64,000 bases of DNA from Acidilobus sp. 7A (GTDB lineage Archaea > Thermoproteota > Thermoprotei_A > Sulfolobales > Acidilobaceae). Location of the stretch: the NCBI RefSeq assembly GCF_003431325.1, contig NZ_CP010515.1:620001-684000 (forward strand), read 5' to 3'. The notes below the pieces were generated by a model. That model was given only the letters and a program-made list of their open reading frames with translations. It had not been told where the DNA came from and ran no database searches. The translations under genes were made by a program, and so were the position numbers. Positions 24,961 through 47,608 of the stretch are shown here, piece after piece. Within the stretch, counting starts at the first letter, position 1; each line of letters begins with the position of its first letter.

Positions 24961-25086
24961 TGCCGGCCCCGGCTTGGAGGGGCTGCGAGGCCTTTCGGAC
25001 CTCACCGCCCGCTCCAACGCGGCCTGCTTAACTTCCGGGTTCGAGGTGAGTCCGGGTGTTGCCAGGCCACTATGGCCGGGCCGGCA
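24961..25086 (-). rRNA. rrf: 5S ribosomal RNA
   Basis: On the minus strand the 126-nt segment opens and closes with complementary ends (TGCCGGCCC and GGGCCGGCA). It also carries the universal 5S features: GGCAACACCCGGACTC, the loop CTCGAACCCGGAAGTTAAGC, and a GGTGAGGTCC segment. It stands alone, away from any 16S or 23S gene, as is common in crenarchaea. The ends are placed from the closing stem and could be off by a few bases. Confidence 0.93.
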
Positions 25087-45814: not shown

Positions 45815-45842
45815 CTGACCTCCTCCCCGCCCTAAAGGGCGA
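45815..45842 (-). repeat. Right-end hairpin of the TnpB element
   Basis: Hairpin GCCCTAAAGGGC-type, followed on the minus strand by GGGGAGGAGGTCAG, sits at the 3' end of tnpB. The TAG stop of tnpB lies inside the hairpin, and the C-terminal codons read through it. The position and form suit the guide-RNA-encoding right end of IS200/IS605-type elements. A 25/28 match in inverted orientation is at 47581-47608. Confidence 0.65.
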
Positions 45843-47034
45843 GGGTTCCCTTAGGGCGGTTCACAGGTTCCCCCCATCTGTTCGGGCTTACATCTGTCAC
45901 CTGGGGGGCAGTCGGGGTGGCCAGAGATCCCCCCATCTTGCTAAGCGCCCTCCCCTCAATGTTCAGTATAGCTATTGTGTCCCTGTCAGCCTCAAAACCA
46001 CATTTAGGGCACCTGAGCCTGCGATAGCCAACCTCTACGAGCTTAGTACCGCACCTTGGACACGTAGAGGACGTGTCAGCTGGGTCAACTACGAACAGCG
46101 GCACCCCGTTCTTTTCGGCCTGCCAGTCAAGCCAGAGCCCCAGCCTCCTGTAGCCGAGCGCTATCAGGGCTGTCCTGTGCCCCTTCGGGAGCTCCCTTAG
46201 GCTCTCTATCAGCCCCGTGAGGTCCTCCCTGGCTACCGCCAGCTGGCTTTGCTTAGCCAGTGATATTATTGTATGTGATACCTTCCTGGCCCAGTCCTCT
46301 AAAATGTTCTTTGTCTTCCTGCGGAAGTGCCTTATCCTCCTCCTTACACCGCTCCTCCTACGCCAGGCCCTGTACCTTGAGGAGGAGTACTTCCCCTGAA
46401 GCCTTTCAGCGAGCCTCCTGTAGCGCAGGGCCCTCTCAACGGGCGTCTCAACCCTTACCTCAACGCGTGAGTTGCCAACGACTATCTGCCTCTCGTTCAC
46501 GTCAACTGCCAGCACGCCCTTGGGGGCGTACTTGGCTGGCCTTGGCACACGCTTGGTCACATAAAGGTCAAACCTGCCGTCCCTAAATACAAGCCTGGCC
46601 TCTCTGTTAGGGAAGTCGTCATACCTCCTATCCCAACCAATTACCCTGAGCTTATAACCTCCTGCTAGCTCCATATGGTTATCCTTTATCCTGTAGCCCT
46701 CTTCATATGTCAGCCACATGCTTAGGTTCCTAGCTGTTGGCACAGCGCCCCTTCTCGGGTTCTTAAGCCACGACCTGGCTATAGCTATGGCCTCCCTGTA
46801 GCAGTCCTGGGCGACCCTGGATGGCAGGCCGTACCTCTCCCTCAGGTCATTATACAGGAGCCTGTGGGCCTTGGTGAGGCTCAGGGCCCTGCTCGCTATT
46901 ATTGCCCTTACCGAGTAGTTTAGGGCGTCCCTGTACCTCTTCATGAGGTTCACTAAGGCCTGCTGTTGCTCGGGCTCGGGGCTAACCCTCATTTTAACAC
47001 TCAGGGTTAGCTCTCCCTCACCGCCCGCGGGCAT
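45832..47034 (-). CDS. tnpB: TnpB, RNA-guided endonuclease of IS200/IS605-type element
   Basis: 400 aa, apparently full length. The RuvC-like active site residues are D178 in LAVDVNERQ, E270 in AREDLTGL, and D350/D352 in EADRDTIAILNI. A zinc ribbon (C325, C328, C342, C345) sits before the last. TnpB proteins cut DNA guided by an RNA from the element's right end. No TnpA transposase is nearby, so movement would need one from elsewhere. The start overlaps a small upstream ORF by 17 nt. Confidence 0.92.
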   Translation of the reverse strand: MPAGGEGELTLSVKMRVSPEPEQQQALVNLMKRYRDALNYSVRAIIASRALSLTKAHRLLYNDLRERYGLPSRVAQDCYREAIAIARSWLKNPRRGAVPTARNLSMWLTYEEGYRIKDNHMELAGGYKLRVIGWDRRYDDFPNREARLVFRDGRFDLYVTKRVPRPAKYAPKGVLAVDVNERQIVVGNSRVEVRVETPVERALRYRRLAERLQGKYSSSRYRAWRRRSGVRRRIRHFRRKTKNILEDWARKVSHTIISLAKQSQLAVAREDLTGLIESLRELPKGHRTALIALGYRRLGLWLDWQAEKNGVPLFVVDPADTSSTCPRCGTKLVEVGYRRLRCPKCGFEADRDTIAILNIEGRALSKMGGSLATPTAPQVTDVSPNRWGEPVNRPKGTLAL

Positions 47035-47206
47035 TCACTCCACCCTGTTCTTCTGAATGTCCACCTTCCTCATACAGTTGGGGCATGTAAAGCCTCAGGA
47101 ACTCAAGGAGGTCATCACCGCCGCCCTCGGGAAGGGCCCTCGTTCTCAGGGCCTCGACGAGTGCGGGCCCTTCACCCCTCACTGGGCAGCTCACCCACGT
47201 AACCAT
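47018..47206 (-). CDS. Small ORF coupled to tnpB (hypothetical)
   Basis: About 62 aa from ATG 47206 (MVTWVSCPVRGEG), with a Glu/Gly-rich end. It starts just after the 30-bp palindrome that would serve as its promoter and ends 17 nt inside tnpB. A longer frame upstream would cross the palindrome. No family is recognised; it may be a translated leader or an accessory protein of the element. Confidence 0.4.
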   Translation of the reverse strand: MVTWVSCPVRGEGPALVEALRTRALPEGGGDDLLEFLRLYMPQLYEEGGHSEEQGGVNARGR

Positions 47207-47207
47207 A

Positions 47208-47237
47208 TGATAGAAAAGCTTATAAGCTTTTCTATCA
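47208..47237. promoter_or_regulatory. Perfect 30-bp palindrome, predicted bidirectional promoter/operator
   Basis: TGATAGAAAAGCTTA and its exact reverse complement meet here, giving 30 bases identical on both strands. The centre reads CTTATAAG, TATA-like in both directions. The small ORF/tnpB run left and the 52-codon ORF runs right. A dimeric regulator could bind the symmetric arms. Confidence 0.65.
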
Positions 47238-47258
47238 ACTCTAGCTTTTGATGATAGC

Positions 47259-47417
47259 ATGGCTAAGTTCATATACGTCGAGAGCACGGTGATAAAGTAC
47301 AGGGGCGGGACCGTGGTCCTTTACCCGCTGGCTAAGTACCAGCCAGAGGTGAAGCCTCTGCACGGTAGGAAGGTGCACGTGATAATAATAGCGGAGGAGT
47401 GGCGTTATTCTCTATAA
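47259..47417 (+). CDS. 52-aa basic protein, AbrB-like, divergent from tnpB
   Basis: The frame ATG 47259 to TAA 47417 encodes a 52-aa protein beginning MAKFIYVESTVIKYRGG. The order of strands (TVVLYPLAKYQ, GRKVHVIIIAEE) is reminiscent of the beta-rich AbrB/SpoVT fold, which is an inference from pattern only. It begins about 35 nt from the palindrome's TATA-like core. If it is a DNA-binding protein, the palindrome would be a natural operator for autoregulation and for control of tnpB. Confidence 0.6.
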   Translation: MAKFIYVESTVIKYRGGTVVLYPLAKYQPEVKPLHGRKVHVIIIAEEWRYSL

Positions 47418-47580
47418 ACCTATATGAATGTTAAAACAGCTACGTAAGGCGCGTTAAACACACTAAAGAAACAGTGAACCTAATGGTTTCAACCGTAAAG
47501 AAGGCCCCTATTTTCATCATAGATCATAACTGAGTAGCACACCCGTAAAAGGGGTGTAAACCCTGAGACCTCGGGGTCCA

Positions 47581-47608
47581 TCGCCCTTCAGGGCGTGGAG
47601 AAGGTCAG
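47581..47608 (+). repeat. Inverted copy of the TnpB right end
   Basis: Hairpin GCCCTTCAGGGC followed by GTGGAGAAGGTCAG. Read on the other strand it matches the end at 45815-45842 at 25 of 28 positions. Just upstream, at about 47533-47580, two more stem-loops (ACACCC...GGGTGT and ACCCTGAG...CTCGGGGT) make an RNA-like array. No transposase gene is read towards it; only the 52-aa ORF precedes it. Confidence 0.6.

Follow-up and report, generated by a model that had tools for sequence, protein, structure and literature searches.

Palindromic promoter and divergent small gene as an apparent accessory module of archaeal TnpB-only elements, found within a composite of partial tnpB elements

A palindrome and a small ORF in the genome of Acidilobus sp. 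7A constitute a genuine and conserved accessory module of TnpB-only elements, one that is apparently undescribed. The pairing of tnpB with a gene for a tiny divergent protein appears, on the sequences compared, to be widespread in heat-loving archaea, and the locus where it was noticed consists of three partial tnpB elements, fused or lying side by side, and is not a single element. The locus occupies 45815-47608 of the window, i.e. the 64,000-nucleotide stretch of NZ_CP010515.1 from position 620,001 to 684,000 (forward strand) that was analysed. An Rfam search of the window returned no known RNA in this region; a 5S rRNA gene lies elsewhere in the window (24964-25083, minus strand).

The palindrome (TGATAGAAAAGCTTATAAGCTTTTCTATCA, 47208-47237) extends over 30 bp without a mismatch, precisely as an earlier note on this DNA had reported, and 8e-5 such palindromes would be expected by chance in 64 kb of the same composition. 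It is centred on CTTATAAG, a presumed shared TATA box with a probable operator, and separates a rightward ORF of 52 codons (47259-47417, plus strand) from a leftward ORF that is followed by tnpB. Both divergent ORFs of the earlier description are thus present, although their extents proved misleading. In almost every close relative the frame ends after codon 47, and the 52 codons in the window reflect a local loss of that stop (TGA to TGG). The small ORF to the left (47018-47287) is chimeric, running from approximately 32 codons at the N-terminal end of another tnpB (GTG at 47182) into the sequence of the element described below as A.

Element boundaries were drawn from homology within the genome itself and with relatives. 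Element A (45815-47088) is 5'-truncated with an intact tnpB. On the minus strand it comprises a 3' (right) end hairpin (45815-45842), likely the end of a guide-RNA scaffold, which agrees with the ends of other A copies and of many solo copies; a family A tnpB of 400 aa (45832-47034) with RuvC D/E/D residues, two CPxCG pairs and a match to the Pfam family Cas12f1-like_TNB (1.7e-17); and, as an alignment of four A copies indicates, the 3' stub (47035-47088) of the small zinc-ribbon ORF found ahead of tnpB in complete A elements. A whole-genome search located copies of this tnpB at 7.8, 324, 386 and 561 kb, which share only 45815-47088 with the window, the match ending at 47088. Upstream of this point the other A copies contain the zinc-ribbon ORF, then a TATA box and finally a left end that starts TTTACAACTGAAAG, whereas the window copy is devoid of the left end, its own TATA box and most of the zinc-ribbon ORF, and is instead joined to the head of element B at an 'AC' microhomology immediately past TTTAC (47087-47088).

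Element B (47087-47451) derives from another tnpB element, of which it retains the head, and carries the first ~32 codons of a truncated family-B tnpB (47087-47182, minus strand, probable GTG start at 47182, TnpB profile score of 26 bits), the palindrome, the small ORF and the left (LE) terminus (47415-47451). It is 96% identical at the DNA level to a more complete B copy at 1500 kb, where the segment adjoins another tnpB (36% identical protein), and its outer end at about 47451 was set by seven short B-derived elements with the same left terminus. Element C (about 47456-47608) is the remnant of a third element, comprising its end and the 3' tip of its tnpB. It consists of the last ~25 codons of a family C tnpB (47456-47533, plus strand, stop at 47531-47533), recognised by comparing the translation with the 3' end of the C tnpB at locus L092, and of a 3' (right) end with scaffold-like hairpins and a terminal GGTCAG (47525-47608, plus strand). 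The latter is 84% identical to 1279202-1279285 of the genome, which comes after a tnpB 3' fragment.

The mirror-symmetric unit perceived in the earlier note is an accident of stacked elements, and a reading of the locus as one element was rejected because homology breaks at 47087/47088 and at 47451. The hairpins at either extremity (45815-45842 on the minus strand and 47581-47608 on the plus strand) do agree at 25 of 28 bases in inverted orientation, as had been stated. However, this sequence is the 3' end of both A and C and occurs dozens of times in the genome; the outer symmetry is therefore coincidental, and the hairpins cannot be taken as the paired right ends of one element. Additionally, in a genome of the same genus about 43 bp separate the left flank (45770) from the right flank (47625), an empty site that shows nearly the whole stretch to be inserted mobile DNA and on which the proposed domestication was rejected. 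In the window the palindrome is intact, and so is the tnpB ORF with its right end, as would be anticipated if the entire unit worked as one domesticated module with paired right ends; yet the two homology boundaries, the missing left end and zinc-ribbon sequence of A, the empty site and the repetitive nature of the matching ends render this scarcely credible.

Other dispersed elements were encountered in the same analysis. Solo elements of about 44 bp (TTTACAACTGAAAGCCTCGCCCTTTAGGGCGGGGAGGAGGTCAG, e.g. at 122764-122797, 1110079-1110112 and 1340718-1340751 of the genome) apparently represent a left end fused straight to a right end via a shared hairpin, and their core is present at 16 genomic places with 0-1 mismatch. 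A further dispersed family (L012-L022, several within 61-75 kb of the genome) displays a conserved and apparently structured stretch of ~150 bp upstream of the same 3' end. Seven B-derived short elements of ~260 bp (L085-L091) keep the B left end and the tnpB 3' end, and may, to judge by these retained parts, still make guide RNAs without tnpB. Full-length A elements (L004, L005, L006 and L007) carry a zinc-ribbon ORF of ~41 aa just before tnpB, and the inverted repeats flanking the TATA box ahead of it seem to covary (GGAAA/TTTCC, AGAAAA/TTTTCT); A elements possibly embody a second design of self-control.

The small protein encoded beside the palindrome belongs to a family whose members are mostly 46-54 aa in length (47 aa at the closest loci) and which occurs throughout the Thermoproteota: a relative is encoded by 40 of 197 genomes in the order and by 49 of 398 in the phylum. 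Among 83 order-level loci, read in addition to the window and its 1500-kb copy, 70 carry a tnpB or tnpB fragment that is divergent from and adjacent to the small gene; none has tnpB in another orientation, 12 are without tnpB and one lies at a contig edge. This is the opposite of an absence from every related tnpB locus, which the earlier note had named as the outcome that would speak against its proposal. More distant members elsewhere in the phylum mostly have the same divergent layout. Two distant relatives (L192 and L194) lie upstream of, and co-directional with, tnpB-like genes. At one exceptional locus (L065:1474-1794) the small domain is fused to a helical tail and is divergent from an apparent Y1 transposase ORF, with the inverted repeats CTGGCAG/CTGCCAG around the TATA box. 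Close members mostly display pN/pS values of 0.05-0.2, indicating that the small protein is under purifying selection. The combination of tnpB, a divergent partner gene and a symmetric promoter resembling an operator is thus a real and conserved arrangement under selection; that the intact tnpB of the window belongs to this partner was not supported.

The partner TnpBs retain the RuvC D, E and D residues in 34, 34 and 33 of 34 cases, respectively, and a nuclease-dead, TldR-like role was consequently rejected. Furthermore, distances among the small proteins correlate with those among the TnpBs (Mantel r 0.67 over 34 pairs, reached in 0 of 2000 permutations), implying that partner and TnpB travel together.

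Searches of the small protein against Pfam, NCBIfam, PHROGs and PDB profiles produced no match and recognised no DNA-binding family. Its AlphaFold model is a fairly confident beta-alpha-beta structure (pLDDT 82) whose best Foldseek neighbour is a dimeric DZBB barrel, at a non-significant E of 4-6. Membership of the AbrB/MazE (SpoVT-AbrB) family was assessed and was not supported by any significant profile match: 26 members gave no MazE/AbrB match in Pfam, one distant relative matched MazE_antitoxin at E 0.058, below the cut-off, and hhalign to AbrB/MazE gave only 0.5%. Kinship with this family is only suggestive. Viral contigs, plasmids and phages yielded no relatives at the thresholds applied, and a search of largely open-access literature found no small regulator divergent from tnpB.

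The DNA between the two genes has a consistent geometry. A TATA core matching in at least 6/8 positions is present at 50 of 57 loci, and its centre, in 50 non-redundant loci, is found 31-40 bp ahead of the small gene. The corresponding distances in the window are 36.5 bp to the start of the small ORF and 40.5 bp to the probable start of the B tnpB. Archaeal TBP binds symmetrically, and in P. furiosus symmetric BRE-TATA-BRE promoters transcribe both ways from a single TATA box (PMC6640164). The symmetry could accordingly be that of a bidirectional core promoter alone, with the small protein acting otherwise, e.g. by binding TnpB, the guide RNA or the element ends; such promoters exist and the core recurs at most loci, yet we consider this unlikely, since consensus BREs should survive a permutation of the arms. 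Outside the core, arms from the same locus are complementary at 6.04 of 12 positions as against 4.83 when arms are permuted among loci (0 of 2000 permutations). The excess is strongest at arm position 13 (30 observed versus 12.4 expected), and true pairs surpass permuted ones most clearly at positions 12-14, outside the expected BRE. Perfect palindromes with differing arms around the same kind of core are found in the window and at L124 (30 bp each) and at L062 (32 bp). Such locus-specific matching points to a coevolving operator and would not be given by a fixed core-promoter consensus.

The strength of this signal varies with the grouping of the loci and from locus to locus. After clustering of related loci, the symmetry persists in 39 groups (0 of 500) and is weaker in 15 (p 0.014), and single linkage at 60% no longer permits the arm-symmetry test. 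Sliding one arm by +2 scores almost as well as the true register, and better with the 15 clusters. Individually, only 17 of 59 loci reach p<=0.05, and many show little symmetry outside the TATA core, so that the operator, if it is one, must often be imperfect.

Covariation by itself cannot tell a DNA operator from a hairpin, and IS200/IS605-superfamily elements make use of terminal hairpins; the palindrome might thus act as a DNA or RNA hairpin or cruciform, for example in element excision. We regard this as improbable, because the palindrome is internal to the element rather than terminal, lacks a loop and is centred on a TATA box whose distance to the two start codons is fixed, and because the geometry of archaeal promoters would place it ahead of both transcripts.

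A shared bidirectional promoter with an operator bound by the small protein, which would limit the expression of tnpB and of its own gene, is therefore the probable explanation. As an account of a large group of archaeal TnpB transposons, in each of which a built-in regulator of ~48 aa would act on a palindrome spanning one shared TATA box to repress both tnpB and its own gene, we would give it about an even chance. In B-type elements, the ~48-aa protein gene is divergent from tnpB, and a TATA box placed centrally, some 36-40 bp away from either start codon, would serve both genes. Half-sites on either side of this box form the palindrome, and a dimer of the small protein seated on them would block TBP/TFB in both directions. 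The protein would thereby limit its own expression and that of TnpB, so that the dose of a self-targeting nuclease stays tolerable. The A tnpB of the window, which has lost its own TATA box and left end, has the B promoter upstream of it and may for this reason now be driven from there.

TnpB is a relative of the Cas12 ancestor and is able to cut its own host genome. To our knowledge, little has been described of how TnpB-only elements control its dose. If confirmed, a conserved partner gene divergent from tnpB and equipped with an operator would provide a direct answer: the transposon itself would encode a control on the dose of its RNA-guided nuclease, and possibly a ready-made off-switch. 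The proteins concerned are short enough for annotation to miss and are absent from every family library searched. The window itself warns that stacked mobile elements can yield a neat symmetry by chance.

Compared with known systems, the elements resemble the TnpB-only members of IS200/IS605 (IS1341 group) in their tnpB, with RuvC D/E/D residues, a TNB domain and a zinc ribbon, in the end hairpin that follows tnpB directly at its 3' side, and in the lack of a Y1 tnpA in the element or the genome (PF01797 had no match genome-wide, the same profile being found in 5 of 14 controls). They differ from this group in that B-type elements add a divergent ~48-aa gene and a palindromic shared promoter, and A elements a zinc-ribbon ORF in the same direction as tnpB. 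Those IS605-type elements in which tnpA and tnpB diverge likewise possess two divergent genes, one of which is tnpB, but the divergent gene described here mostly encodes 46-54 aa and not a Y1 transposase. Assignment to IS607 was rejected, as no serine recombinase tnpA is present at the window locus or the 1500-kb copy; two such genes score above the cut-off elsewhere in the genome, at 189 and 694 kb. TldR proteins are nuclease-dead, TnpB-derived, RNA-guided repressors; as with these, a TnpB-related protein is found in a gene-regulation setting, but the partner TnpBs keep their RuvC residues and the putative regulation acts on tnpB. The small protein is reminiscent of autoregulated DNA-binding proteins such as AbrB/MazE in its size, predicted beta-alpha-beta topology and palindrome at its own promoter, although it is without a significant sequence, profile or fold match. 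Finally, the arrangement, known here from sequence, shares with the bidirectional BRE-TATA-BRE promoters of P. furiosus (PMC6640164) a single symmetric TATA box between divergent starts, and departs from them in half-sites whose covariation between loci extends past the BRE and in having conserved genes on both sides.
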